This document shows, piece after piece, positions 4,077 to 20,442 of a stretch of DNA of 20,654 nt (positions are counted from its first letter, which is position 1; each line of letters starts with the position of its first letter). Source of the stretch: a virus. A program made the position numbers and the translations under genes. Under the pieces are notes generated by a model. It was not told the DNA's origin. It saw only the letters and a program-made list of their open reading frames with translations, and did not search any database. The stretch is from positions 1-20,654 of the IMG/VR virus record IMGVR_UViG_3300033571_030427; one strand, written 5' to 3'.

Positions 4077-4862
4077 CTATAATGTTATAGTATAAAAGCT
4101 TTCTTCTTTTTTATCAACTTGTTTCCAAGGAAAAGCTTCACCATATACCTGCTTAATTTTTTCGTTACCGGTTAAAAAAAATTGTGCTTGTACTGAATCA
4201 TTTCTATTACCTACACGATAATTAAGAGTATAGGCTTTTGAGCAGTCGTATTTGGGTTCTTGTTGCATTAATACACTGGTAATAATTCTATCTACTTCAG
4301 GTTGTTCTTGAGGATGTCTTGCACGCCGGTACCATAGTGGTGTTACTAAAAGGGCAAGTTGTTTAGGTAAAAACCAACACCCCACATCAATAAAATTATC
4401 ATTAAGAACTGATTTCCATTTACCTAAAGACTCACAATTATCCTCACATATAAACTTTTTATCTTGAGTGTAAATATTTCGTAAAGAATAAGCCCATACA
4501 TTATCTTTTTCAATTACATCCACAAGCGCTTCTACGTGCTCGGGCTCAAGCCAATTATCCTCATCTAAGTACATTATATACTGCCCATTACATAGGTACG
4601 TAAATGCACCGTAAATTCTATGTCCGTTATAATTATCTTTACCCGTGGCTACAGGCAAAACACAAGTCTTAGTAGAATTAAATTTATTAAGAATTTTTAT
4701 AGCTTCTTTTTTTCTTTCTATACCATCTATTACTACATAGTGTTCAATATTTTTATATGTTTGTCTACATACCGAACGCATTACATCTTCAAGCATTAGG
4801 TTACCGGTTGTTGCAGTAATAATAGAAACAAGCGGTTTGTTTGATGTACTTACTACATTCAT
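4077..4862 (-). CDS. Glycosyltransferase, GT2 family (GT-A fold)
   Basis: 261-aa transferase likely to move a sugar from a nucleotide-sugar donor to a glycan acceptor in the cytoplasm. The N-terminal strand LVSIITATTGNLMLEDVMRSV and the QTYKNIEHYVVIDG segment are typical of GT2 enzymes. The DxD metal-binding motif is in YLDEDN at residues 98-103. No membrane segment is visible. It shares one base (TAATG) with the gene before it and is the last glycan gene before the replication block. Donor and acceptor cannot be told from sequence. Confidence 0.9.
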   Translation of the reverse strand: MNVVSTSNKPLVSIITATTGNLMLEDVMRSVCRQTYKNIEHYVVIDGIERKKEAIKILNKFNSTKTCVLPVATGKDNYNGHRIYGAFTYLCNGQYIMYLDEDNWLEPEHVEALVDVIEKDNVWAYSLRNIYTQDKKFICEDNCESLGKWKSVLNDNFIDVGCWFLPKQLALLVTPLWYRRARHPQEQPEVDRIITSVLMQQEPKYDCSKAYTLNYRVGNRNDSVQAQFFLTGNEKIKQVYGEAFPWKQVDKKEESFYTITL

Positions 4863-5632
4863 TATATGACTCCAATTAATTGCTGTGCAATGGATGGGTG
4901 TCTATCATACTGGTGTACAATCGCTGGTATTTTATTATCTATTCCAACAATTACACCTTCATCATTTATTTTTGTATCCCCTAAAGAGTGACCAATAGTA
5001 GCAATTGCTTCTCTACCTGTATAATGTAATGTGGAGGGGGGTAATTTTTGCATAGCAAAGCACATATTTAGATATGCTTGATCTACAAACCTACTGCCTA
5101 ATCTATTATGCTCATTAATCATAAGTTCACAAAGTTGTAAAGCATATGAAGTACCACCCCCTGTAACCCCTGCACAAAGTATCCAATTATCTTTGGTTTG
5201 CTCCAGCATTTCAAAGCTGTAGATATCATTCATCCATTTAGCATTAAAGTGCGTACATTCTTTAATTTTTTTAGTTTCAACAGAAAGGTCCAAGCCCTCG
5301 GTATTAAAATATTTAAACGGGTTATCCTGAAAAATTACATCTCTTGTGTCAGTAAGAAGAACATAATCAACAGCATCCTTATACTGCATGTTAATGATTC
5401 TATGCGGTAACACCCATCTCATATACATTACAGATTCGGGTGTAATTTTATTCCCAAGCTTAAACACATCTACATCAAATGACTTTAAAAAAAGTATAAA
5501 TTCCTCGTCATCACTATCAGTGGCAATGCAGATAAGTCCATCAGAATATTTTCGATAAGACTTAAGAAAAGAATCCATACTAGAAATATTTGAATATATG
5601 CCTGTTGCCATTCCAAATGTTAATGTTTTCAT
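4862..5632 (-). CDS. Glycosyltransferase-like protein with DTRD motif
   Basis: About 256 aa. It has a GT-A-like pattern: N-terminal MKTLTFGMATGIYSN, then LLTDTRDVIFQDNPF around residue 95, which resembles the metal-binding region of nucleotide-sugar transferases that work on surface glycans. A HQYDRHP segment near the C-terminus may also bind the donor. The ATG at 5632 gives the ATGA overlap usual in this operon. A second ATG two codons earlier (5638) is possible, and neither has a strong ribosome site. Substrate is unknown, and the family is less certain than for its GT2 neighbour. Confidence 0.75.
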   Translation of the reverse strand: MKTLTFGMATGIYSNISSMDSFLKSYRKYSDGLICIATDSDDEEFILFLKSFDVDVFKLGNKITPESVMYMRWVLPHRIINMQYKDAVDYVLLTDTRDVIFQDNPFKYFNTEGLDLSVETKKIKECTHFNAKWMNDIYSFEMLEQTKDNWILCAGVTGGGTSYALQLCELMINEHNRLGSRFVDQAYLNMCFAMQKLPPSTLHYTGREAIATIGHSLGDTKINDEGVIVGIDNKIPAIVHQYDRHPSIAQQLIGVI

Positions 5633-6558
5633 AGCCATTCTTTATTGTTAGTATACCACTTAACTGTTTGTTGGATACGTTGTTGAAGTGTATATGGGTT
5701 TTTCCACTGGTTATAAATTTTACCAGAATTAATTGTCATTAGAATGCCGTGGCCGTTTCGGCTAGGCTCAACAAACTTTACTTTTAGTGGCTTGCCCAGT
5801 GATCTAGCAATCATTTGACACAGTCCAAGATTAGTAGTAAAGCTGTTATGTGCGCTGTTCCATTTTTCACATAATTGCTTTTGATTATTTAAAATAAATC
5901 TGGTATGAAGGGCTACATCTTCTACATGCTGCCATTTTCGACCGCTTATTTGATAACCGTCAGAAACTATAAGAACTTCTTCCTCGTTCATTATCTTATT
6001 AATTGCAATAACAGGCAATCTGTTTTTTTGTGATCGTTCACCAAACGTATTTGCAATATTAATAATACTAACTGGTAGATTAAAAGTTTTTGAATATGCC
6101 ACACAGAGTTCTGCGCCTCCTGCTTTAGATGCAGCATACGGGCTTACACTATCGTAAGGGTCGTTTTCATACTTGTCTGTACCAGGAGTTGAGGGACCGT
6201 AAGATTCTGCAGCACCATAATAAACAAACCGTTTTAAATTAGGTAATTTTTTAGCAAACTCTAACATATTTGCTGTACCTATCACGTTATCCATTACTAC
6301 TGAGAAGGGGTCGTTAATGCTTGACTCTGAACTAGGATTACCTCCAGCGTGAAGTATAACTTCAATATCGTCCAGATTATGTACAAATTCTTCTCTTAAA
6401 TTATGTTCGATTAACTTAACGTTTAAGTTTACATCTTTAAGTCTTCGTAAGTTACCGTTAGGTCTTACTACACATATTAATTTATAGTCTTCAAAAAATT
6501 GTTTGACTAAAAAATGCCCTATAAATCCGGCAGCACCGGTAATTAACATTTTTTTCAT
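5629..6558 (-). CDS. NAD(P)-dependent sugar epimerase/dehydratase (extended SDR)
   Basis: 309-aa nucleotide-sugar-modifying enzyme. The Rossmann dinucleotide site is GAAGFIG at residues 8-14, and the catalytic YxxxK is YAASK at 141-145. Where most extended SDRs have Ser or Thr, the FVYYGAAESYG segment (111-121) has Ala, so the usual catalytic triad may be incomplete. The C-terminal half (GRKWQHVEDVALHTRFIL) is typical of sugar-binding parts of this family. It overlaps neighbours by ATGA on both sides and sits next to the split ThDP enzyme, so it may reduce or epimerise that enzyme's keto-sugar product. The reaction cannot be fixed from sequence. Confidence 0.88.
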   Translation of the reverse strand: MKKMLITGAAGFIGHFLVKQFFEDYKLICVVRPNGNLRRLKDVNLNVKLIEHNLREEFVHNLDDIEVILHAGGNPSSESSINDPFSVVMDNVIGTANMLEFAKKLPNLKRFVYYGAAESYGPSTPGTDKYENDPYDSVSPYAASKAGGAELCVAYSKTFNLPVSIINIANTFGERSQKNRLPVIAINKIMNEEEVLIVSDGYQISGRKWQHVEDVALHTRFILNNQKQLCEKWNSAHNSFTTNLGLCQMIARSLGKPLKVKFVEPSRNGHGILMTINSGKIYNQWKNPYTLQQRIQQTVKWYTNNKEWL

Positions 6559-7301
6559 AATAAAGATTTATCAATCATTTCTTCTTTAAGCTCTTCATCG
6601 CTTAAATGAGGTTGCATATCATGTAAACCTGCTTGTTTACCATTTTTAAAAGTTTGAGCTGGTAGTATAGCCTGATCTTCTAAACATTTACAATCAATAA
6701 TTGCAGGACCGGGTTTATGTAATATTTCCTCTAATGTTTCTAGTTGACATTTAGTTCTTATTTCGTGGAATGTATGTTCGAATGCAAGAGCAATATTTTT
6801 TAAAGAGGGAAACCAAAGACCGGTCTCACTACTTGTACCATGCACTCTCCCCTCAAAAAATCTACTCTGAGTATTTTTAATTGAAAGATAACCGTCGTTA
6901 TTAAGAATAATAAATTTTATATTAAGTTGATGTTGTCTGACGACGGCAAGTTCTTGAATATTACTCATAAAACTTCCATCACCAATTATAGCAATTACCG
7001 GTTGATTACTTGCTATAGCAACTCCAATGGCTGCAGGTAGTGCCCAGCCCATATCAGCTTGTGCAGGGCTAAAAATAAACCGTTGACTATCTTTTGCTTT
7101 AAGTGCTACAGGCCCGGCATAACTTATACTACCAGCATCACCCATAATAATATCAGTTAATAAACTAAATCTGTTTACTGCGTCTAGAACTGCATAGATA
7201 TTAAGTTTATAATCATCTTCTTTAGGTAAGTATTCTGGAATTATAACAGGCCATTTATTTTTCCAGCTCTCACATTTTTTAATCCATAGTTCTTTATTCA
7301 T
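6555..7301 (-). CDS. ThDP enzyme, PP (cofactor diphosphate-binding) half, acetolactate synthase-like
   Basis: 248-aa protein matching only the C-terminal third of acetolactate synthase-type enzymes. The ThDP diphosphate/Mg motif starts at GDGSF (residues 107-111) and ends at NND (134-136). QADMGWALPAAIG upstream of it is the usual PP-domain entry. The NNDGYLSIKNTQSRFFEGR stretch resembles ThDP proteins in O-antigen clusters. The N-terminal PYR and central domains lie in the next gene upstream, joined by an ATGA overlap. Together they have the normal length of one enzyme, and the cut falls in the interdomain linker. It probably forms a complex with that partner. Confidence 0.9.
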   Translation of the reverse strand: MNKELWIKKCESWKNKWPVIIPEYLPKEDDYKLNIYAVLDAVNRFSLLTDIIMGDAGSISYAGPVALKAKDSQRFIFSPAQADMGWALPAAIGVAIASNQPVIAIIGDGSFMSNIQELAVVRQHQLNIKFIILNNDGYLSIKNTQSRFFEGRVHGTSSETGLWFPSLKNIALAFEHTFHEIRTKCQLETLEEILHKPGPAIIDCKCLEDQAILPAQTFKNGKQAGLHDMQPHLSDEELKEEMIDKSLL

Positions 7302-8320
7302 AGCATTACTCTAAAAAAATCTTTCAAGTCACATTGCCAGCTCACATCATTTTTAATAATGTCTTTATTTAATTCGTTACAATCTATGTCTACTACAATT
7401 TTTTTACTTGAGGGACTAAATAAAGATGAACTATATCCAATAACGCTTGAATTTAAACTGGACCCCAGTACAATAAGAAGGTCACAATTTTGAACGGCAA
7501 AATTACCTGCCCTACTACCCTTAATACCAATGGTTCCAATATTAAGGGGATGACTATCAGAAAAATAATCTCTCGAACCATAGGTACTTACATACGGGAG
7601 ATTATACTTACCTATAAATTCTCTAAATTGATCTATAGTATTACTTTGTCTTATACCGTAGCCGGCTAATACTAAAGGTCTTTCTGACTTGTCGATTTCA
7701 TTTTGAATAGTACTAGCTTTAAAAGACAAATACTCCTCATCTATAGGTGTACTTAAAGAATTAAACTCTTCATATTCATCTGGTATTAAAGCAGTTTGTA
7801 TATTTGCCGGTATATCAATCCATACTGGACCTGGTCTACCTGTAGTAGCAGTCCAAATGGCTCTTTGCAATATAAAAGGAACATCCGAAGCTGAAATTAC
7901 AAAATCTGTTCTCTTTGTAATTTCTTTGTAAGTGTCTACTATATGGTGCTCTTGTACACCATATTTTCTTATATTGATATTTTTATGAACGTTTATCCAG
8001 CCCGAGCAATCTTCCAGCTTTACATTACCACTTATAAAAATAACTGGTACACTGTCTTGCCATGCATTCAATACCGAAGTAGCACAGTTAGTACCCCCAC
8101 ACCCGGTAGTTGGATTAACTACGGAAAACCTACCTGTAAACTTGCTTTCACCTATTGCTGCATGCCCGGCTCCTTGTTCATGATGGTAGCATATGTACGA
8201 AAGTTGTCCATGTTTAATAAACCCATCATTAAGCCCCATAGCACCGCCACCCATAAGACCGTGTACAAATCTTGCACCATTATCGTAAAGATAATTAGCG
8301 ATCCAGTCGCATACTCTCAT
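7298..8320 (-). CDS. ThDP enzyme, PYR plus central domain half, acetolactate synthase-like
   Basis: 340-aa protein matching the N-terminal two thirds of acetolactate synthase-type enzymes. The PYR domain carries the catalytic Glu that activates ThDP in YHHEQGAGHAAIGESKFTG (Glu48), and GPVWIDIPANIQ ends this domain. The central domain (LAGYGIRQS to VVDIDCNELN) resembles the FAD-binding middle domain of acetolactate synthase. The start at 8320 is chosen because AAGG lies about 9 bases upstream. A longer frame from 8347 would overlap the previous gene further. Enzymes of this type transfer a two-carbon unit from pyruvate; YerE does so onto a 4-keto sugar. That activity here is inferred. Confidence 0.88.
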   Translation of the reverse strand: MRVCDWIANYLYDNGARFVHGLMGGGAMGLNDGFIKHGQLSYICYHHEQGAGHAAIGESKFTGRFSVVNPTTGCGGTNCATSVLNAWQDSVPVIFISGNVKLEDCSGWINVHKNINIRKYGVQEHHIVDTYKEITKRTDFVISASDVPFILQRAIWTATTGRPGPVWIDIPANIQTALIPDEYEEFNSLSTPIDEEYLSFKASTIQNEIDKSERPLVLAGYGIRQSNTIDQFREFIGKYNLPYVSTYGSRDYFSDSHPLNIGTIGIKGSRAGNFAVQNCDLLIVLGSSLNSSVIGYSSSLFSPSSKKIVVDIDCNELNKDIIKNDVSWQCDLKDFFRVML

Positions 8321-8969
8321 GTATATAAACCTTATCTCCGTCAACATTCTTTTTTGAGTCTCTATAACCCATACTTGATAAGAATGTTAAAATTTTATTA
8401 TAGTTAACTTCATATCTTTTTGCCCATGCATCATGGTACTCTAGGGCAATAACCGGTCGGTGTGTCTTTATTGTATTAACTGCTCCTTCAAGCGCAAAAA
8501 GTTCGTACCCCTCCACATCAAGATGGATTAAATCACATACCTGTAAAAAAAGATCATCGACTTGAAAAGTTGGAATTAAACCTACCCCCTGTACGTGGGT
8601 TGACCCCGTATCGGGTGTAATCTGATCAAGACCTACACAACCGCGAGTATTACCAAGACAGGCTTGAAATTTAATTACATTTATTTCAGTTACATTTTTT
8701 GTAAGGCAATAAAAATTTACAGGCTCAGGTTCAAATGTATAAACAACATCAAATAAATTTGCATACTGCTTTACATAAAAACCCGCATTACCACCGGCTT
8801 GAACTACTACACGTCTATTAGGTACATAGGCACTTATATATTTTGGAACTGCGGGATGCGTTTGCATATAATGCCAACACGATGTTGGTCCCTCATAATC
8901 ACCATAACCATCATTACCAGGCCAAAACCACCCGGCTGAGTTAATTACTACTTTTGTTTTTATGTCCAT
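8295..8969 (-). CDS. FkbM-family SAM-dependent methyltransferase
   Basis: 224-aa methyltransferase. The SAM-binding region is VVVQAGGNAGFYVKQYANLF followed by VYTFEPEPVNF. The FkbM signature DLIHLDVEGYELFALEGA is clear, and LEYHD follows. FkbM enzymes usually O-methylate sugars or polyketides and are frequent in phage and bacterial glycan clusters. The start ATG overlaps the end of the aminotransferase gene by 29 bases, and the 3' end overlaps the ThDP gene by 26 bases. The ribosome site is weak, suggesting coupled translation. Probable role: methylating a sugar made or transferred by its neighbours. Confidence 0.9.
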   Translation of the reverse strand: MDIKTKVVINSAGWFWPGNDGYGDYEGPTSCWHYMQTHPAVPKYISAYVPNRRVVVQAGGNAGFYVKQYANLFDVVYTFEPEPVNFYCLTKNVTEINVIKFQACLGNTRGCVGLDQITPDTGSTHVQGVGLIPTFQVDDLFLQVCDLIHLDVEGYELFALEGAVNTIKTHRPVIALEYHDAWAKRYEVNYNKILTFLSSMGYRDSKKNVDGDKVYIHESMRLDR

Positions 8970-10125
8970 TTACCCACTCATTTATTCTGTCTAAAGCTAG
9001 GCGAATATTGTCTCTACTAGTGGCGTAGCAAAGGCGAATATACCCCTCACCATATTCACCAAAGCAGTTACCGGGGCAAGATACTACCCCAGCATCAAGA
9101 AGACCCTCAAAAACTTCTTCTGAAGTTAAGCCTGTTCCTGTAATATTTGGAAACACATAAAACGCACCACCGGGATTAACACAGCTAAATCCTTTTATCT
9201 TATTTAATCCATCCACAAGAAGTTTACGCCTTTCTTTAAACTCTCTCATCATATTATATACTTCTTCTTGTGAACCTTCCAGCGCTTCTTTACCTGCTTC
9301 TTGAATAAAGGGGCTTACACAGCTAGAGGTTGTCTGTAACAAAACTGCCATTCGCTCAACTACTTTTTGTGGGCCAATTATTGTACCAAGTCTCCAGCCT
9401 GTCATTGCAAACGATTTACTAAAACCATCACTTAAAATTATATGTTCGCGACACTGATCGTAAACGCTGGGGCTATAAATGAGAGAATGATCATAATTCA
9501 TACGACTATAGATTTCATCACTATAAACGTAGATATCATGCTTCTTAGCTATCTCATATACTAACCTTATTTCATTAAGGGTCATTACACTACCAGTAGG
9601 ATTATTGGGACTATTAATAATTATTAATCTAGTTTTTTCTGTAATAGCTTTTTCTATATCTTCAGGACTCATCCTAAATTGATTTTTTTCTAATAAGGGC
9701 ACTCTTACTGCTTTTGCACCACACATTTTTATAGTACTGTAATAAGTTGCAAATCCAGGGTCAGGTACTATAATCTCACAACCGGGATCAACCAAGCAAT
9801 AAATTGCATAAAAAATACCAATGTTAGCACCAGGGGTAATAAGTACCTGATTAATATCTGGTGTAAACCCTCGGCTTTCTTTTATGTGTTGTCTTATTGT
9901 TTCTCTAAAGTCAGGCAATCCAAAACTGCTACAATAGTGTGTACCCCCATTATGAAGTGACCTATAAGCAGCTTCAATTATATTATGTGGTGTTGTAAAG
10001 TCAGGATCACCAATTTCCATATGAACTAGGTGCTTGCCTTGCCGCTCGAGATCTTTAGCGCGGTCAAGGTATTTAAACATTGGTTGACCGTCAATGTTTT
10101 GTGATGCTTGCGAAAGAGATTTCAA
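8941..10125 (-). CDS. Class I/II PLP-dependent aminotransferase
   Basis: 394-aa fold-type I aminotransferase of full family length, resembling the aspartate/alanine group. Motifs seen are NSPNNPTG (171-178), the PLP ring Asp in YSDEIY (Asp203), the PLP Lys in SDGFSKSFAMTGWRLG (Lys237) and the Arg of WRLG (Arg245). The protein looks intact. Such enzymes normally act on amino and keto acids and not on nucleotide sugars, so its place in a glycan block is unusual. It might supply pyruvate or an amino acid building block, for instance by an alanine transaminase reaction. This is speculation. It starts 2 bases after the GT25-like gene ends. Confidence 0.93.
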   Translation of the reverse strand: MKSLSQASQNIDGQPMFKYLDRAKDLERQGKHLVHMEIGDPDFTTPHNIIEAAYRSLHNGGTHYCSSFGLPDFRETIRQHIKESRGFTPDINQVLITPGANIGIFYAIYCLVDPGCEIIVPDPGFATYYSTIKMCGAKAVRVPLLEKNQFRMSPEDIEKAITEKTRLIIINSPNNPTGSVMTLNEIRLVYEIAKKHDIYVYSDEIYSRMNYDHSLIYSPSVYDQCREHIILSDGFSKSFAMTGWRLGTIIGPQKVVERMAVLLQTTSSCVSPFIQEAGKEALEGSQEEVYNMMREFKERRKLLVDGLNKIKGFSCVNPGGAFYVFPNITGTGLTSEEVFEGLLDAGVVSCPGNCFGEYGEGYIRLCYATSRDNIRLALDRINEWVNGHKNKSSN

Positions 10126-10127
10126 TT

Positions 10128-10892
10128 TTAAAGACCAGCAAGGGTAAGAATTTCAGGCATATCGTTTCTAGTTTGCATATTGATATCCATATATTGACTA
10201 TGCAATGGTTGTTCGGTTTGAAATAGCCCGTTTTGAGAGCCTTGAGCAACAATAGGAGGCTCTAACCAATATACATTCATATCTAACATTTTCATCCAAA
10301 AACCTAGTTCCGGATCCGGATTGAAACATATTTTTTTGGCATTCATATAGTCATAAACTTTTTTTGCTGCTTCTTTTTTGAAAAGAATCGAATCTGCACA
10401 CCTGTCAGCAGGATGTTCTTTTTTATACCAAAATACACCTTCTTTAAGACGTTCTTTTGGTATGCGTTTACCTGCACCTTGACCGATAAATGCTACGTCC
10501 CATTCTTTAGGTAAACTGTTCATGTATATGTGAAGTGTTTCTTTAAAGTTTTCACAAATAATAGCATCATCTTCAAACATTATTCCTACTTCATTAATAC
10601 CATATCCAATTCTTCTAAACGCTTCTTTTTGCTTAAGACTCAAAGATACCATTGATGGTTGAAGAGGGTAGTGGGGATAAAATTCGTTAGGATCTTGACC
10701 TCGGCGTTGATATTCTAAGTGGTCGGCTTGAAAATTATCCACGTAAAGTTGATAAGAAACTTCTTCTTTATCCCAATCTAATATCCAATGAACGTTTTCC
10801 ATTTTTTCTTTTTTAAAAATAGCGTCCATTACTGCTTTACGTCTAGCATTTCCTTTATAGTGTACAACATAGGAAGGAATGTCTTTATTCAT
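10128..10892 (-). CDS. Glycosyltransferase, GT25 (LPS core type) family
   Basis: 254-aa transferase of the LPS biosynthesis GT25 type. The acidic metal motif is MFEDDAII (EDD at residues 107-109). SILFKKEAAKKVYDYM and the C-terminal VYWLEPPIVAQGSQNGLFQT follow the usual GT25 order. No signal or membrane segment is visible, so it is probably cytoplasmic or loosely membrane-bound. ATGA overlap with the upstream GT4-like gene links the two in translation. Likely role is adding a sugar to a lipid-linked glycan or LPS core. Donor unknown. Confidence 0.85.
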   Translation of the reverse strand: MNKDIPSYVVHYKGNARRKAVMDAIFKKEKMENVHWILDWDKEEVSYQLYVDNFQADHLEYQRRGQDPNEFYPHYPLQPSMVSLSLKQKEAFRRIGYGINEVGIMFEDDAIICENFKETLHIYMNSLPKEWDVAFIGQGAGKRIPKERLKEGVFWYKKEHPADRCADSILFKKEAAKKVYDYMNAKKICFNPDPELGFWMKMLDMNVYWLEPPIVAQGSQNGLFQTEQPLHSQYMDINMQTRNDMPEILTLAGL

Positions 10893-11833
10893 TTAAGAAA
10901 GACCTCGTCAAATTTTTTAATTACAGATATAGGATTAAACTGCTCTACTAAATGTTTCCAATCCTGCCTTTTAAACTGATCTATGTTTTGTAGTTTTTCA
11001 ATTATATCTTTTTCATTGTAAAGGGAACCAGAGGACTTAAGAAGGTAATTATGATTTTGATCAATACCACCTTCCCAAGCAAATACTGGTTTATTATGAA
11101 ATAGAAACTCACAGACTGATAATCCAAAGCTTTCCCCCCTGTTGCGAGCATGGAGCATGGCATCACACGTATTAATAAAGTTAGATTTCTTTTGTCTATC
11201 TACTATGGAATCAACATAGATAACACGTTCATGTTTTATAAATGGTTCAGTATTAACTAATAGTAAAACAAACCTGTTGTCTTTATCTAAAAGTTGCTTA
11301 ATTGCTTGTTTAGCAAACGGTAAATCAAATGTTAAGTAACCGCCATAACGACCAAGCACAATTTTATCTTTACTGATACCAAGTTTTTGTCTATAATCTT
11401 CATTAGGAGAAGGAAGATCTACAATATGAGGCACAAACGGAATTTCCCCGCCCATAGTTTTTGAAAGCCATTCAGATACATATGCATAGCGATCACCATG
11501 AGGTTCTTTTGCCTGAAATACGGCATGCACCGCGGTACGTACATTATGAGGTAAGGGCTCGTCAAAACCATAACGTATAAAATAAGTAACATCAGCGTCT
11601 TTAACTGCTTCTTCTAATTCTTTAGAATTTTTATAGGAACGGACCTCAAATGATTTTTTCATAAAATCAAGTGCTTCCTGTTCTGTACCTACATCCTTTT
11701 CATAAGGAAAATCATTATTATATAAAATGATACTTTCGTTTCCTAAAACCTCTTGATTATATTTTGCATAATCATAAACTGCAACTGCAGTCCCTCGGTA
11801 GTTTAGTGTTATAGTATGAAATATAACTTTCAT
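10889..11833 (-). CDS. Glycosyltransferase, GT4/GT-B type
   Basis: 314-aa retaining glycosyltransferase candidate. The EX7E donor-site pattern is seen in RGESFGLSVCEF (Glu234 and Glu242), preceded by CDAMLHAR and followed by NKPVFAWEGG, as in GT4 C-terminal domains. The N-terminal domain is shorter than usual, so the protein is compact. It lies between two other transferases with ATGA overlaps on both sides. Sugar specificity cannot be inferred. Confidence 0.85.
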   Translation of the reverse strand: MKVIFHTITLNYRGTAVAVYDYAKYNQEVLGNESIILYNNDFPYEKDVGTEQEALDFMKKSFEVRSYKNSKELEEAVKDADVTYFIRYGFDEPLPHNVRTAVHAVFQAKEPHGDRYAYVSEWLSKTMGGEIPFVPHIVDLPSPNEDYRQKLGISKDKIVLGRYGGYLTFDLPFAKQAIKQLLDKDNRFVLLLVNTEPFIKHERVIYVDSIVDRQKKSNFINTCDAMLHARNRGESFGLSVCEFLFHNKPVFAWEGGIDQNHNYLLKSSGSLYNEKDIIEKLQNIDQFKRQDWKHLVEQFNPISVIKKFDEVFLK

Positions 11834-12561
11834 CCTAACTTTGCCTTCACGTTTTGATATAATTGTTGTTCAGCAGGAAAACAAGCAATACGACCTTGAA
11901 AGTCAAAATTAGTTGACTCAAACATACCTTTAGTTGTAAATGTACCTTTCACTACCTCTTTACATCTTTTAATAAAAAGCTGTACGTTGGTTTCCATTCT
12001 ACTTTGAAAGAGGTGATAAAATTTATTTGCAAATACTGTACCTACACCATACAGGCCGTAATTGTTTAGTCTCCAGACGCCTTCTTCCGGTTCTCTTTCA
12101 AAATGTGTAGGGTAGAATGCTTTCATTCTTACCCCGTTTTGTTCAGCTATGTAACATAGTTCTTCTGCAACATCTGATCGCTGGGTTTCTAAAAATGATG
12201 GCTTACCTAGTGCTACCCATAATGGTTTGTATATAAAGAAGCATGAAGGTGCTATGAATGTATGGGTCATAGGAGGCAGGTGATTGGTTGCCTGTACATT
12301 ACCAGCGATACTTTTATTAAGTCCGACAAATTGTACTAATTCCATAATTGCATCCCCTGATAAAGGTATACAATCAATATCTAAAAATCCTACAATTTCA
12401 GCGTCGGTATTTTCCATTATAGAATTCATAAAATCACCGTGCCTGATTACCTGCTCATAATAATTAACTGGAACGTTCCAATGTTCCATAACTTTTTTAT
12501 GGGCACTTATGAACTCTTGATTAGAATTAGGAAAATAAAAAGTATTAATTGAAACTTTCAT
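11830..12561 (-). CDS. Glycosyltransferase-like protein with DxD motif
   Basis: 243-aa protein beginning MKVSINTFYFPNSNQEFI. A GT-A-like metal site is visible in GFLDIDCIPL (Asp61 and Asp63), where strands leading to LDxD are typical. The rest (HTFIAPSCFFIYKPLW, FYPTHFEREPEEGVWR) resembles sugar transferase-like proteins of phage and bacterial glycan clusters, without a family I can name. It overlaps both neighbours by ATGA. Assignment as a glycosyltransferase is probable but not certain. Confidence 0.65.
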   Translation of the reverse strand: MKVSINTFYFPNSNQEFISAHKKVMEHWNVPVNYYEQVIRHGDFMNSIMENTDAEIVGFLDIDCIPLSGDAIMELVQFVGLNKSIAGNVQATNHLPPMTHTFIAPSCFFIYKPLWVALGKPSFLETQRSDVAEELCYIAEQNGVRMKAFYPTHFEREPEEGVWRLNNYGLYGVGTVFANKFYHLFQSRMETNVQLFIKRCKEVVKGTFTTKGMFESTNFDFQGRIACFPAEQQLYQNVKAKLG

Positions 12562-13379
12562 CGTAGTAATTGATCCACAGTTGCGTTAATAGAATAGACC
12601 GGTATATAACCTAGAGCTCTGAGCTTTGAGTTTTCCATATACATAGATTCTACCTGTACTGTTTTATGAAAAAATGGTTGCTCAATATAATTGATCTTTG
12701 ACGTTGAGTTAATTTTCTTAATAGCATAGTCAATTATATCCTTAAATAGAGTTGGCTTGCCATTGCCTATGTTATAAATTTCATTTTTTTGACCGCGTTC
12801 TATAACTAATTTAACCGCACTACATAAATCAGCTACGTGGATATAATCCCTGTAGAACTGCCCTTCATTATACAAATTAATATCGTGATTGTTTTTAATC
12901 TCATTAATAAGATATGTAAGAGCGTTTTTCTTTTTTGAAACACTTTTATCCCCCGGGCCAATTACATTTGCAAATCTTAATATGCGGTAGTTAATGTCGT
13001 AAGTCTCGCAATATGATATTAACAGCTGTTCAGCTGCACGCTTAGTAATAGAATAAAAACCTCTAGGTTCACAATATGAATCTTCTCTTGCCGGGAGGGT
13101 TGTATCACCGTAAACAAACCACGAACTTGCAAAATTAAAAACCTTATGTGGAGATTCTTTTCTAAAGTTTTCCAGCACCCTAATAAGGGTTATTAAATTA
13201 GTTTCAATATCAATATACGGGTTAACCTTTACATTATAATTAGTAGTAGTACTAATTAAATATAGAACATCATGGCCAGGTTTTGGGATTAAATTATCAC
13301 GCTCGTTCAAAACACAAGCGTACCGCTTACAATATTCTGTCCCAATAAACCCAGTTCCACCAAATAAATTCACTATCAT
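12558..13379 (-). CDS. NAD(P)-dependent sugar dehydratase/epimerase/reductase (SDR)
   Basis: 273-aa extended SDR acting on a nucleotide sugar. The dinucleotide motif is GGTGFIG (residues 7-13), the catalytic Ser is in FNFASSWFVYG (Ser86), and YxxxK is YSITK (109-113). FANVIGPGDK and FYRDYIHVADL are typical of this family. All triad residues are present, unlike the SDR at 5629-6558. It follows the E1-type dehydrase with a one-base overlap, so it could act on the 3-deoxy-4-keto sugar, for example as a C4 reductase. It may instead be an unrelated epimerase. Confidence 0.88.
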   Translation of the reverse strand: MIVNLFGGTGFIGTEYCKRYACVLNERDNLIPKPGHDVLYLISTTTNYNVKVNPYIDIETNLITLIRVLENFRKESPHKVFNFASSWFVYGDTTLPAREDSYCEPRGFYSITKRAAEQLLISYCETYDINYRILRFANVIGPGDKSVSKKKNALTYLINEIKNNHDINLYNEGQFYRDYIHVADLCSAVKLVIERGQKNEIYNIGNGKPTLFKDIIDYAIKKINSTSKINYIEQPFFHKTVQVESMYMENSKLRALGYIPVYSINATVDQLLR

Positions 13380-14668
13380 TAAAACTCACTTAATACTTTG
13401 TCAATATATTGTAATACTTCCTCTGTATAAAGAGGAGAGCAACCTAAAAAGAAAACATTACTTAAAGCCATATTAGAATTAGGGTACTTAGTAAAATCGT
13501 CTAAGTGCTTATATCCTGGGTGTAATAAAATATTACCGGAAAAATAGTTACGAGTCTGGATCTTTTTTTCTTCTAGATAGGCAACTAAAAACTCTTTTAA
13601 ATCTTGTGACTCGCAGAATACCGGGACACCAAACCACGAGGGATCACAGTTGGAATGTGCCTTTATAGTACTTAAGCCTGAAACTTTTTCTAACGAAGAA
13701 TCAATGCGCGCTTTGTATTTTCTTCTAAGTTCGTCAATCTTGTCAATTTTTTTAAGCTGCGCGATACCAATAGCACCCTGAAGGTCTAAAGGCTTCAAAT
13801 TATAACCCATGTAGGTAAATAGATACTTGTGATCAATTACCCCTTCATAGTCAGGCAACCAGTTGCTAAAACGTTTTCCGCATGTACCGCAAGGTAAGAA
13901 ACTATTTGCACCAACACAGTAACAATCCCGACCCCACCAACTAATGCTCCTTACTCTATCAATTAAAAGTTTATCATTAGAGCAAACCATTCCTCCCTCG
14001 CCGGTACTAATATGGTGGGCGGGATAAAACGAAGTTGTCCAAGAATAATAATACTCTGTAATTAGCTTACCATTTACTTTTGTTCCGAGGCTGTCACAAT
14101 TATCACCTAATAATAAGATACCATGTTTGTTACACAATGCATCTAGCTTATCCATATCAGGGGGATTACCAAGAACAGGAGATACAAAAATAGCTTTAGT
14201 CTTAGGTGTGATCTTTTCTTCGATTTTATTGACATCAAAATTTAATGTATCTAATTCAATATCAATAAAGACTGGCTTTAGATTGTTTTGAACTAAAGGA
14301 GCAATAGTTGTTGGAAAGCCAACAGGTGATACGATCACCTCATCACCACACTCCCACTCAAAGTGATATTTGAGTGCTGTAATCATAACTAGGTTTGCTG
14401 ATGAACCCGAGTTAACCATGTGTGCGTAGCCAACATTAAATTTTTCACAAAATTTTGTTTGAAACTCGTCTACATAGTCACCAGAAGTAATCCAATTACC
14501 TTTCACAAACGCAGAAAGAGCTAATTCAAGCTCTTCTGCATCCCACCACTGACCTGAGTACTGAACAGTATCCTTCCCAGGACTAAACTGTTCGTACGAT
14601 TTCAGGTAAGCAGGTTTAACTTGTGATAAGGTTTTAATGGCATTATTAATCTCATCAATGGTAGGCAT
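13379..14668 (-). CDS. rfbH: PMP-dependent 3-dehydrase, CDP-4-keto-6-deoxyglucose-3-dehydrase (E1/RfbH) type
   Basis: 429-aa DegT/DnrJ/EryC1/StrS fold protein. The residue that is normally the PLP-binding Lys is His218 in SFYPAHHISTGEGG, the hallmark of 3-dehydrases that remove the C3 hydroxyl. Phosphate binding is in NSGSSAN, and DNCDSLG holds the cofactor Asp. Cys191, Cys249, Cys251 and Cys263 (before GKRF) match the [2Fe-2S] pattern of E1, C-X57-C-X1-C-X7-C, except that the last gap is 11 residues and holds an extra Cys260. ColD-type dehydrases, as I recall, lack the iron-sulfur cluster, so E1/RfbH is favoured. E1 needs an E3 reductase partner, which is not in this window. GGAG precedes the ATG closely. 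Confidence 0.9.
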   Translation of the reverse strand: MPTIDEINNAIKTLSQVKPAYLKSYEQFSPGKDTVQYSGQWWDAEELELALSAFVKGNWITSGDYVDEFQTKFCEKFNVGYAHMVNSGSSANLVMITALKYHFEWECGDEVIVSPVGFPTTIAPLVQNNLKPVFIDIELDTLNFDVNKIEEKITPKTKAIFVSPVLGNPPDMDKLDALCNKHGILLLGDNCDSLGTKVNGKLITEYYYSWTTSFYPAHHISTGEGGMVCSNDKLLIDRVRSISWWGRDCYCVGANSFLPCGTCGKRFSNWLPDYEGVIDHKYLFTYMGYNLKPLDLQGAIGIAQLKKIDKIDELRRKYKARIDSSLEKVSGLSTIKAHSNCDPSWFGVPVFCESQDLKEFLVAYLEEKKIQTRNYFSGNILLHPGYKHLDDFTKYPNSNMALSNVFFLGCSPLYTEEVLQYIDKVLSEF

Positions 14669-16031: not shown

Positions 16032-16060
16032 ATTATATCATAAAACTGTTTCAATGTCAA
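16032..16060 (-). promoter_or_regulatory. Consensus sigma70 promoter for the glycan/replication operon
   Basis: On the minus strand, TTGACA (16060-16055) and TATAAT (16037-16032) both match consensus at 6 of 6 positions, with the ideal 17-base spacer. It sits just after the stop of the oxygenase gene. The predicted transcription start (about 16026-16024) coincides with the ATG of the DUF4384-like gene. It is likely read by host RNA polymerase early in infection. Confidence 0.85.
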
Positions 16061-16074
16061 TAGTTACTTCTTAA

Positions 16075-16635
16075 TTATTTATTTAATTTGTAAAATATTG
16101 CTAGGGTAAATCGGTAACCTGGTGCAATGCGTGAAGGCCCTCTAATTGTATGTGGTATACTTCCATCAAAAAGAATAACTCTACCAGGCTTATATACAGA
16201 AGTAAATAATACCTCACTAAGATTTTCACTAAAAAATAATGTTTCACCAGCCCATTCTTCTTTCCATTGAGTGTTTACGTAGTAAAGAAGTGAAAGCCCG
16301 GGGTGGGTGTGTGCAAAATAAACATCTCCGGGTTGAGAAAGATTGAGGGTTACTCTACTGGGGGTTAAATTAGCTATCTTAAAAAGTAAATTAACATTGT
16401 TTATATTTTCAACAAATTTAAGGTGTTGAAACTCCTCTAGGCTGTAATTAGAATGTAGGTTACGAAATTCTGAGTAAGGTAACTCTTCAGTATCATTAAA
16501 CCCTATTTTAAATAAAGAGTTTTGAGCAGTTTTAACAACAGAGCTTCTCCAAGCCAAATCAAAGACATTATCAAAAACGTAAACTGTTTTTTCACGGTCT
16601 ACTTTTATTTCTTTATAGTCTTCATCCATGGTCAT
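16075..16635 (-). CDS. 2OG-Fe(II) oxygenase-like protein with HxH motif
   Basis: 186-aa cupin-like double-stranded beta-helix oxygenase. The metal site appears as YFAHTHPGLSLLYYVN, with His109 and His111 where many relatives have HxD. The distal His is in IPHTIRGPS (His162), and Arg175 in YRFTLAIFY may bind 2-oxoglutarate. WAGETLFF between them is typical of the family. The substrate is unknown; phages of this type carry several such genes. It lies directly after the CAU tRNA and before the strong promoter. The ATG at 16635 has only a weak ribosome site, and a second ATG two codons later is possible. Confidence 0.8.
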   Translation of the reverse strand: MTMDEDYKEIKVDREKTVYVFDNVFDLAWRSSVVKTAQNSLFKIGFNDTEELPYSEFRNLHSNYSLEEFQHLKFVENINNVNLLFKIANLTPSRVTLNLSQPGDVYFAHTHPGLSLLYYVNTQWKEEWAGETLFFSENLSEVLFTSVYKPGRVILFDGSIPHTIRGPSRIAPGYRFTLAIFYKLNK

Positions 16636-17816: not shown

Positions 17817-18107
17817 CTATACCCTCATGTGCATTATCGGTCCCGGGCTGTTGTAAATGTTACTATATTTTTTAAGTCTTTCTTCCTTTTTATTAATACG
17901 TTTATCTACTTCTTCTTTATTGGAGCTAATAATTTTATACTCGTAACAAAGGTTAATCATACAAAGTACATCGGCAATTTCTTGCTCCAACTGCTCTTGA
18001 TTATTTGCCATACCGAAACGTTTTACTTTACTAACTGCCTGAATAACTTCGGCACACTCCTCTTGCAATATGAGAAGTATTTCGTCCCGTTTACTTAGTT
18101 GGTTCAT
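17817..18107 (-). CDS. mazG: MazG-like nucleotide pyrophosphohydrolase
   Basis: 96-aa all-alpha NTP pyrophosphatase-like protein. The metal-binding EExxE is EECAE (16-20) and the second half, ExxD, is EIAD (43-46). This is the single-domain MazG form, shorter than the E. coli protein. Phage MazG proteins are thought to trim nucleotides or alarmones; which substrate is used here is unknown. The start ATG overlaps the end of the upstream oxygenase gene by 17 bases, with GGAG 9 bases before it. Confidence 0.88.
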   Translation of the reverse strand: MNQLSKRDEILLILQEECAEVIQAVSKVKRFGMANNQEQLEQEIADVLCMINLCYEYKIISSNKEEVDKRINKKEERLKKYSNIYNSPGPIMHMRV

Positions 18108-18690
18108 TTGTAGGCTCCGATTCTAAAAAAACATACCACCCGGTTGTAATATACTTTACTTCTTTTGGTGCTGGTGCCCCCCTATGGGTATGGGTCCATA
18201 TTGATGGCCATATAATAGTAAGGCCTTTTTCAGGTTTTATTTTAGTATTTTGATAAAAAAATTCTGTCTCTCCCCCTTCTTTTACAGTATTAAGATACGT
18301 TAAAAAAACTAGATGTCTTTTATCTTGATTGTTTGTAGTAGCTGGCCACCCAGCATTTTCACAGTGCCAATTGGAGTAGAATTTGCCGGGAGAATATTTT
18401 TGTATATTAATATCACTGTCAGGAGCATAGTAGTATACGTTGTCAACATAGCCGTAAATTTTTTTATATTCTTTAAGCACCTTATCTACAATTAGTAAAT
18501 ACTCTGTGTAAAGACCGGCGTCCATGTTTAAAAGATTTGCGACCGTATATCCTCTATGATTACCCGTTTCATCCATTCTAACAAAATCTTTATCACTATT
18601 AAAAACACTAATAATTTGATCCCATAGAGGGGTATCAAAGTACCATCCTGCAATGAAGTTATTAGAGGTATTTACTAGATGGGGCTTCAT
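18091..18690 (-). CDS. 2OG-Fe(II) oxygenase, prolyl-hydroxylase-like
   Basis: 199-aa oxygenase from the ATG at 18690. The metal site reads NWHCENAG (His109 and Glu111, an HxE form of HxD), followed by LVFLTYLN and GGETEFF. A distal His lies in WTHTHRGAP (His167 or His169), with a downstream Lys in KYITTGWYVF that could bind 2-oxoglutarate. This start gives a TAATG overlap with the membrane-protein gene. A start 16 codons earlier (18738) is possible but poorly supported. Substrate unknown. Confidence 0.87.
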   Translation of the reverse strand: MKPHLVNTSNNFIAGWYFDTPLWDQIISVFNSDKDFVRMDETGNHRGYTVANLLNMDAGLYTEYLLIVDKVLKEYKKIYGYVDNVYYYAPDSDINIQKYSPGKFYSNWHCENAGWPATTNNQDKRHLVFLTYLNTVKEGGETEFFYQNTKIKPEKGLTIIWPSIWTHTHRGAPAPKEVKYITTGWYVFLESEPTNEPTK

Positions 18691-19043
18691 TACTTTACTA
18701 AATGCTGGGCTAATACCATACAACTTATCCAGGCCCATATTGTATTAAATCCTACAAGGGTAGGCAATAGCTTTATATTAGAAGCCCATATTAATAACAG
18801 GCTTGTAAACAGTGTAAAAGTAAATAACCACCAAATCTGTATTCCAAATATTAAACCTGGAATAATAATTACTGCTTTTGTTGCCCATGATAAAAACTCT
18901 ACTGTATTATAGTTTGTCCAATACTCTTTAGTAAACCATAGCTTATAACAGTCTTTAATATTTTTTAACCCTGTATGATGGTAAACTAAAAGTAAGAGAA
19001 TAAAAGCAGCTAAATTAGCTATTAAGATTTGTAATGTGGTCAT
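18690..19043 (-). CDS. Small multi-pass membrane protein, 117 aa
   Basis: Hydrophobic protein with about four predicted membrane segments: LIANLAAFILLLLVYH near the N-terminus, AVIIIPGLIFGIQIWWLF, LFTSLLLIWASNI and FNTIWAWISCMVLAQ. No motif identifies it. It lies in a run of small genes with the 116-aa, 53-aa and 59-aa proteins. Function unknown. A holin-type role is possible but unsupported. Confidence 0.75.
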   Translation of the reverse strand: MTTLQILIANLAAFILLLLVYHHTGLKNIKDCYKLWFTKEYWTNYNTVEFLSWATKAVIIIPGLIFGIQIWWLFTFTLFTSLLLIWASNIKLLPTLVGFNTIWAWISCMVLAQHLVK

Positions 19044-19875: not shown

Positions 19876-20442
19876 TTACCACGCCCATGACACCCATGAG
19901 TGACGACGCCCTTTAGTAACGGTAGTAACCTCATGGGGAAAGAGAAAGATGGAGGGAAATATAATAATGTCTCCAGTTTCTAGTTCAAATTTTCTTTCAG
20001 AAACAAAAAATTCACCGCCTTCATAATCATCATTTAGCACCCCCACCATAGATAGTACCGGGATGCCGGTTTTTTCACCGTCAAACAGTGAATGAATGTG
20101 GTCGATATGAGTTCTAATGCGGGTACCCTCAGTATAACAATTTAATCGGGGGAGGGAGTAGTCATTAAGTGGGGCCAGGCCATTTACATTAAACATTCCC
20201 AGGTAAAAATTCATGCAATCTTCAATAGCTGTAATAAATTTATCAATAAATGGGTTAATATCGTTAAAAACCAAGAATTCTTTCCCCTCCTGAGTAACGT
20301 CCCCATAGTAATTGCTCCATTTATGGGTGGTCCATCCCCCAGGCATTAGACTTTCGGTATAACTTACCACCGAGTGACAGTCTTCTTTGGAAATTCCTTC
20401 TTTACATACATGGACATAATTAAAAATATCGTTTTTTTGCAT
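19876..20442 (-). CDS. 2OG-Fe(II) oxygenase, prolyl-4-hydroxylase-like
   Basis: 188-aa oxygenase with a complete iron site: His112 and Asp114 in RTHIDHIHS, distal His170 in LFPHEVTTV, and Arg179/Arg180 in KGRRHSWVSWAW, one of which could bind the 2-oxoglutarate carboxylate. GVLNDDYEGGEFFV between them is typical of the P4H group. GAGG lies 8 bases before the ATG at 20442. Substrate unknown; protein residues or small molecules are both possible. It follows another oxygenase-like gene, whose stop lies 10 bases before its start. Confidence 0.93.
   Translation of the reverse strand: MQKNDIFNYVHVCKEGISKEDCHSVVSYTESLMPGGWTTHKWSNYYGDVTQEGKEFLVFNDINPFIDKFITAIEDCMNFYLGMFNVNGLAPLNDYSLPRLNCYTEGTRIRTHIDHIHSLFDGEKTGIPVLSMVGVLNDDYEGGEFFVSERKFELETGDIIIFPSIFLFPHEVTTVTKGRRHSWVSWAW

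Follow-up and report, generated by a model that had tools for sequence, protein, structure and literature searches.

IMG/VR record IMGVR_UViG_3300033571_030427 is a DNA fragment of 20,654 bases from a T4-like aquatic phage, which we analyzed in its entirety and refer to as the window; the remaining genome lies outside the data. From position 14668 down to 4077 its minus strand carries an operon of sugar genes, in which start and stop codons overlap or sit a few bases apart for every neighboring pair (Table 1). A first-pass annotation had read this block as a possible yersiniose-like pathway, in which a 3-dehydrase, a thiamin diphosphate (ThDP) enzyme and a short-chain dehydrogenase/reductase (SDR) would make a branched 3,6-dideoxysugar. 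The enzymes that it named are present as intact minus-strand open reading frames (ORFs). The block also holds a second SDR gene and a class I aminotransferase gene, neither of which had been mentioned.

Table 1. Genes of the sugar operon and the upstream promoter match, listed in the direction of transcription of the operon.
Feature	Coordinates	Strand	Basis
Sigma-70 consensus promoter, TTGACA-17-TATAAT, extended -10	16032..16060	minus	12/12 matches; consensus match only
RfbH-type (E1-like) Fe-S/PMP nucleotide-sugar 3-dehydrase, subtype RfbH_A	13379..14668	minus	NCBIfam RfbH; PDB 3bcx; active-site residues; tree
SDR1, extended SDR, 273 amino acids, probable C4 ketoreductase of a 4-keto-3,6-dideoxy intermediate	12558..13379	minus	Linkage, triad, model
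Putative transferase, no recognized family	11830..12561	minus	No Pfam match beyond noise even at E 5
Putative GT1/GT4-type glycosyltransferase	10889..11833	minus	Weak Pfam Glycos_transf_1, E 0.007
Putative GT25-type glycosyltransferase	10128..10892	minus	Weak Pfam Glyco_transf_25, E 0.014
AT1, class I PLP aminotransferase, catalytic Lys in SDGFSKSFAMTGWRLG	8941..10125	minus	Aminotran_1_2, 9e-70
FkbM-family methyltransferase	8295..8969	minus	PF05050, E 4.8e-15
ThN, PYR and central domains of split YerE-like ThDP carboligase	7298..8347	minus	TPP_enzyme_N and TPP_enzyme_M; PDB 5ahk, 8rph; trees
ThC, PP (ThDP-binding) domain of split YerE-like carboligase	6555..7301	minus	TPP_enzyme_C, 2.4e-30; PDB 8rph
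SDR2, extended nucleotide-sugar SDR of the ThDP cassette	5629..6558	minus	Epimerase, 1.1e-38
Putative nucleotide-diphospho-sugar transferase	4862..5638	minus	Weak PF03407, E 0.003; PHROG glycosyltransferase, E 2.8e-5
GT2 glycosyltransferase, last operon gene	4077..4862	minus	PF00535, 1.9e-10
PMP, pyridoxamine phosphate; PLP, pyridoxal phosphate; PDB, Protein Data Bank.

The 3-dehydrase has the active site that the first-pass annotation had taken as diagnostic. Its top PDB match is the Yersinia enzyme E1, the cytidine diphosphate (CDP)-4-keto-6-deoxy-D-glucose 3-dehydrase (3bcx, E 2.3e-77), and alignment to E1 showed that the PMP-dehydrase histidine (His220) and the four Fe-S cysteines (Cys193, Cys251, Cys253 and Cys261) are all kept. 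The match to the NCBIfam RfbH model (373 bits, E 1.7e-111) falls under the equivalog cut-off of 423. Unlike E1, the window enzyme carries a phage-specific insertion of the CG[TS]CG type near the Fe-S cysteines. In the RfbH tree it groups in an RmlB-linked phage clade (97/93) whose members share this type of insertion, and it falls outside the CDP-linked clade (98/99) that holds E1, the cellular RfbH proteins linked to RfbG, and one phage group without RmlB. It differs from E1 also in its partners: no E3 was recognized in the window, which is an incomplete genome, nor any Fer2 domain in 25 related records, and the RfbH proteins of its relatives are linked to dehydratase genes of the thymidine diphosphate (dTDP) type. 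The activity that we propose for it, an Fe-S 3-dehydrase acting on a dTDP sugar, is that of SpnQ, the dTDP-4-keto-2,6-dideoxyglucose 3-dehydrase, which takes electrons from general ferredoxin or flavodoxin reductases and not from E3 (PMC8987622). SpnQ differs in acting on a 2,6-dideoxy substrate, in antibiotic biosynthesis; the substrate of the window enzyme would be a 6-deoxy sugar.

ThN and ThC, whose genes overlap by ATGA, jointly supply the three domains of one decarboxylase-family enzyme. The catalytic glutamate of the PYR domain (HHEQ) is intact in ThN, and ThC carries the ThDP-binding motif GDGSFM...NN, in the form GDGSFM...NNDGYLSIKNTQ; NNDGYLSIKNTQ is common to the enzyme JanthE and not to the acetolactate synthases (AHAS). 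Homologues of ThN begin at its Met10, which puts the true start probably near 8320. In the PDB, ThN has 5ahk, probably the PpYerE of the YerE review, and 8rph as its two closest matches, and 8rph is also the closest match of ThC. The 8rph structure is JanthE, a characterized ketone-accepting YerE-like enzyme (PMC12188165; PMC12247030), which served as our YerE-like reference in place of YpYerE.

In the ThDP tree the window pair falls among split phage enzymes, whose clade (100/100) is nested in a larger one with JanthE (100/98) and cellular proteins. AHAS I, II and III form a separate clade (100/99), and grouping with AHAS was rejected by an approximately unbiased (AU) test (p=0.005). The tree comparison that had been suggested as a check thus places the pair with the YerE-like carboligases, and identity as an acetolactate synthase was rejected. 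The enzyme is split in 74 of 78 phage ThDP loci and is a single chain in 71 of 72 cellular loci, and a second phage lineage in the tree keeps the fused form. To our knowledge, all characterized YerE-like carboligases are one chain of ~590-620 amino acids; the two-protein form therefore makes the window enzyme a YerE-like variant and not an outsider to the clade. Judged by sequence, ThN and ThC are a YerE-like sugar carboligase divided between two proteins. With the YerE-like lyases YerE, ErwE and JanthE (PMC12247030) they share the domain order, the catalytic Glu, the GDG and NN motifs, a GYLxIKxTQ segment, the JanthE clade and a constant RfbH-type 3-dehydrase partner. They differ in forming two polypeptides (PYR plus central, and PP), where the cellular relatives examined have one, in the linkage of the phage enzyme to RmlB rather than to RfbF/RfbG, and in their neighbor, an aminotransferase gene where a NeuB-like or HMGL-like donor gene would otherwise stand. 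All 80 phage ThDP loci contain an RfbH; it was scored upstream in 66 of 78, a count that misses overlapping genes and downstream RfbH. A Fisher test on the loci was set aside, since the loci are related and its phage RfbG value had been taken as zero from the clustering instead of being counted. ThDP homologues in the phage-record collection were at most 36% identical and included many host contigs filed as phages, and were uninformative.

Cellular ThDP relatives often lie in clusters ordered RfbF, RfbG, RfbH, donor gene and ThDP gene, and many cellular ThDP loci are linked to a 3-dehydrase. The product of the donor gene is either a NeuB-cupin protein or an HMGL-type aldolase; both families form 2-oxo acids, which would agree with the longer 2-oxo acids that ErwE is known to use (PMC12247030). 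AT1, whose nearest PDB relatives are Pyrococcus aspartate/aromatic aminotransferases, often occupies this same slot in the phages; it is present in 35 of 80 ThDP loci and in none of the 80 RfbH_A loci (defined below). This restricted linkage and the frequent donor-slot position lead us to suggest, with some hesitation, that AT1 could make the 2-oxo acid donor of the ThDP enzyme, a donor that need not be pyruvate. In a few phage loci, such as L043 (8828-9996 region) and L081 (8828-9451), the slot holds a second, very small ThDP enzyme encoded by two genes, one E1_dh-like (~208 amino acids) and one Transket_pyr-like (~180 amino acids), with RfbH on one side and the YerE-like enzyme on the other. 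Among the cellular loci, a contig of Ca. Harrisonbacteria (L171:5383-10869) has RmlB, RmlA, a 3-dehydrase, a cupin and a ThDP gene in a row; the dehydrase is of the His type and lacks the Fe-S cysteines, and the cluster may be a cellular example of a dTDP branched-sugar pathway in which the dehydrase is ColD-like.

Comparison of the best 80 of 522 viral relatives of the window RfbH, the RfbH_A loci, separated the genes that follow RfbH from those that follow the ThDP pair. Nearly all of these loci have an SDR1 homologue directly after RfbH and no ThDP gene. SDR1 has the full catalytic triad that had been noticed earlier: S86, Y109 and K113 are invariant over 19 phage homologues, and the SSWFVYG and YSITK motifs are present. 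Its AlphaFold2 model (pLDDT 87.6) best matched the fold of the guanosine diphosphate (GDP)-4-keto-6-deoxymannose reductase 6x3b, with GalE folds close behind, a result that does not separate reductase from epimerase. The SDR had further been proposed as a YerF-type reductase. Because SDR1 tracks RfbH, which it accompanies in phages without a ThDP gene, and not the ThDP pair, a C4 ketoreductase is the more probable identity; this distinction from YerF draws on gene linkage.

Two relatives are informative about how the window was assembled. L013 has the ThDP cassette with its own RfbH, of a type we call RfbH_B, and RmlB, and L083 has an RfbH_A operon that lacks the cassette. The window resembles a recombination product of these two layouts, and its RfbH_A may work for SDR1 and for the ThDP enzyme alike. 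Beside the L013 cassette (971-2910) are a GDP-mannose 4,6-dehydratase gene (534 bits, over the cut-off) and another epimerase-family gene, and related phages encode FucT-type transferases. After RfbH and SDR1, 61 RfbH_A loci have a DUF6267 protein, and L157 (13385-15190) and 42 other RfbH_A loci have a protein of ~602 amino acids with an N-terminal cytidylyltransferase-like domain.

The genes that would supply the substrate of RfbH were sought in 55 phage records, comprising 50 long related records (30 ThDP and 20 RfbH_A) and five further phage genomes. RfbF was found in none of the 55, nor was RfbG over the cut-off. Weak TIGR02623 matches in five records (≤29 bits) were not called RfbF, and TIGR02622 matches in 40 of the 50 records were cross-hits of other SDRs, none over the cut-off, and were not called RfbG. 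In the window the only 4,6-dehydratase-like matches were SDR1 and SDR2, far under the cut-off, with no other such ORF, in agreement with the earlier statement that RfbF, RfbG and E3 are absent from it. An RmlB-like dehydratase (285-308 bits) was present in 24 of the 30 ThDP phage records, and the motif STDEVYG, with its Asp-Glu pair, in 59 of 80 phage ThDP loci. In 4,6-dehydratases a catalytic Asp-Glu pair denotes the dTDP type and Asp-Lys the CDP type (PMC8987622); the cellular RfbG proteins that we inspected have Asp-Lys. RmlB exceeded the cut-off in seven of the 20 RfbH_A records, one of which also has RmlA. Four complete cyanophage genomes combine RmlB over the cut-off with an RfbH 54% identical to that of the window, and have no RfbF and no RfbG over the cut-off. 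In the two read in detail, the cultured Synechococcus phages RN05-S and S-B05, RmlC and an SDR follow RmlB, and RN05-S has a ferredoxin-like gene. Given RmlB in these relatives and the window RfbH in the RmlB-linked clade, the intermediate is probably dTDP-4-keto-3,6-dideoxyhexose; the separation of that clade from the one linked to E1 and RfbG makes a CDP route unlikely. For the window phage itself, an RmlB of its own, the nucleotide and the product are predictions from relatives.

From these families, active sites, linkages and trees we infer a nucleotide, donor, product and target as follows. An RmlB-type (dTDP) 4,6-dehydratase, from the host or the rest of the phage genome, would form dTDP-4-keto-6-deoxyhexose, as the relatives suggest. 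RfbH would remove the C3 hydroxyl of this sugar through PMP and a [2Fe-2S] cluster, with a ferredoxin/reductase of the host, or a separate one, as electron source, as with SpnQ, since no E3 is linked. ThN and ThC would decarboxylate a 2-oxo acid and join the resulting acyl group to the ketone at C4 to give a tertiary alcohol; gene linkage would make AT1 the probable source of the 2-oxo acid, with an amino acid as its substrate. SDR1 would reduce either the C4 ketone or the branch, the FkbM protein would methylate, and the transferases would attach the sugar to a host-surface or virion glycan.

We consider it fairly probable that this phage operon makes a nucleotide-linked, C-branched deoxyhexose and is fed by a dTDP route. 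A C4-branched 3,6-dideoxyhexose is the best reading of the product because of the YerE-like grouping of the ThDP pair and the constant presence of RfbH in phage ThDP loci; such a product would be similar to a sugar that some bacteria carry in their surface coats. The more detailed scheme, in which an Fe-S 3-dehydrase of its own clade is fed by RmlB and a split carboligase receives a non-pyruvate donor through an aminotransferase, is put forward tentatively. The yersiniose-like pathway of the first-pass annotation thus survives as a branched 3,6-dideoxyhexose; neither the Yersinia CDP route nor synthesis of yersiniose itself is supported. Like the yersiniose A pathway of Yersinia pseudotuberculosis, the window joins a 3-dehydrase, a ThDP carboligase, SDRs and transferases in one operon; it differs in lacking RfbF, RfbG and E3, in an SDR1 that goes with RfbH and not with the ThDP enzyme, and in a nucleotide that is probably dTDP.

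Several observations count against a single dTDP-fed pathway. RmlB is not on the 20.6-kb window, the RmlB-like proteins of ThDP loci score ~300 bits against an RmlB cut-off of 365, and GDP-mannose dehydratase exceeds its cut-off in some ThDP phages. The Asp-Glu pair is also found in UDP-GlcNAc dehydratases (PMC8987622). Association of ThN with ThC is a prediction, and among the ThDP loci seen the window alone has RfbH_A, the RfbH proteins of the other ThDP records being 36-43% identical. Finally, the catalytic Ser of SDR2 is replaced by Ala (GAAESYG vs SSAEVFG in most homologues), as it is in L013, which reflects either changed activity or decay. The loss of this serine would also suit two separate pathways, with RfbH_A and SDR1 making an unbranched dTDP-3,6-dideoxyhexose and AT1, FkbM, ThN, ThC and SDR2 forming a recently imported insert that is either decaying or directed at a different keto-sugar. 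The nearly uniform stand-alone state of RfbH_A and SDR1 in their 80 loci, the similar operon without a cassette in the close relative L083, and the lack in the window of RfbH_B, the partner of the cassette elsewhere, fit this division as well. We nevertheless regard it as unlikely: all other ThDP loci have an RfbH inside the same cluster, the window has intact ThDP and AT1 genes, and its neighboring genes are tightly packed.

A true CDP-yersiniose-like pathway, with CDP-4-keto-6-deoxyglucose (from RfbF and RfbG) and E3 provided by the host, would accommodate the resemblance of the window RfbH to E1 and the cellular ThDP relatives in RfbF-RfbG-RfbH clusters. One phage ThDP group, with a CDP-type RfbH and no RmlB, is likewise in its favor and counts against the dTDP route. 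Nonetheless, this pathway appears improbable when RfbF, and RfbG over the cut-off, are missing from all of the phage records scanned, most ThDP records have an RmlB-like dehydratase instead, and the window RfbH lies outside the E1 clade. We consider it very improbable that the pair works outside sugar metabolism, as an acetolactate synthase or some other enzyme of amino acids, with AT1 as a branched-chain-type aminotransferase. Hidden Markov model libraries do label both halves as acetolactate synthase, and AT1 is an amino-acid aminotransferase, but the scores are far under the AHAS cut-offs, the AU test rejects the grouping, no regulatory subunit, ilvC or ilvD was recognized in the operon, the linkage to RfbH and sugar genes is constant, and the ThC motif is shared with JanthE rather than AHAS.

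The characterized nucleotide-sugar 3-dehydrases act on CDP-4-keto-6-deoxyglucose, GDP-4-keto-6-deoxymannose or dTDP-4-keto-2,6-dideoxyglucose (PMC8987622). If the dTDP-fed branched-sugar pathway is correct, a dTDP-4-keto-6-deoxyhexose 3-dehydrase would represent a fourth specificity, encoded by numerous phages and among them cultured cyanophages. Together with the split carboligase, it would give phages branched sugars of their own for virion decoration or alteration of the host surface. The carboligases would also offer new biocatalysts for tertiary alcohols in an enzyme class under active engineering. Among the titles and abstracts listed in searches of an open library, none dealt with phage dideoxyhexose pathways.

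The five transferases counted in the first-pass annotation are less uniform than that number implies. The GT2 protein has a real Pfam match, but the other four are weak or unrecognized, and two of the five lie beyond the span that had been given for the block. A 64% identical homologue of the gene at 11830-12561, which matches no recognized family, follows RfbH and SDR1 in L083.

The window also encodes a T4-like sliding clamp and clamp loader. The nearest isolate clamp loaders are those of the Pelagibacter phage Mosig and the Methylophilales phages Melnitz (~62% identity). In Mosig and Melnitz a small heat-shock gene precedes the clamp, Melnitz also has a TIGR03299-type gene there, and the region before the clamp contains no sugar genes in either; the sugar operon therefore seems to have been inserted ahead of the clamp. 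The sigma-70 match (16060-16032) lies upstream of two lipoprotein-like genes leading into the operon. The T4 late-promoter motif TATAAATA gave no signal, with two matches in the window against four expected. Near the operon are three minus-strand proteins (16075-16635, 18091-18738 and 19876-20442) that resemble 2-oxoglutarate-Fe(II) oxygenases by eye, and genes for tRNA-Met and tRNA-Arg.

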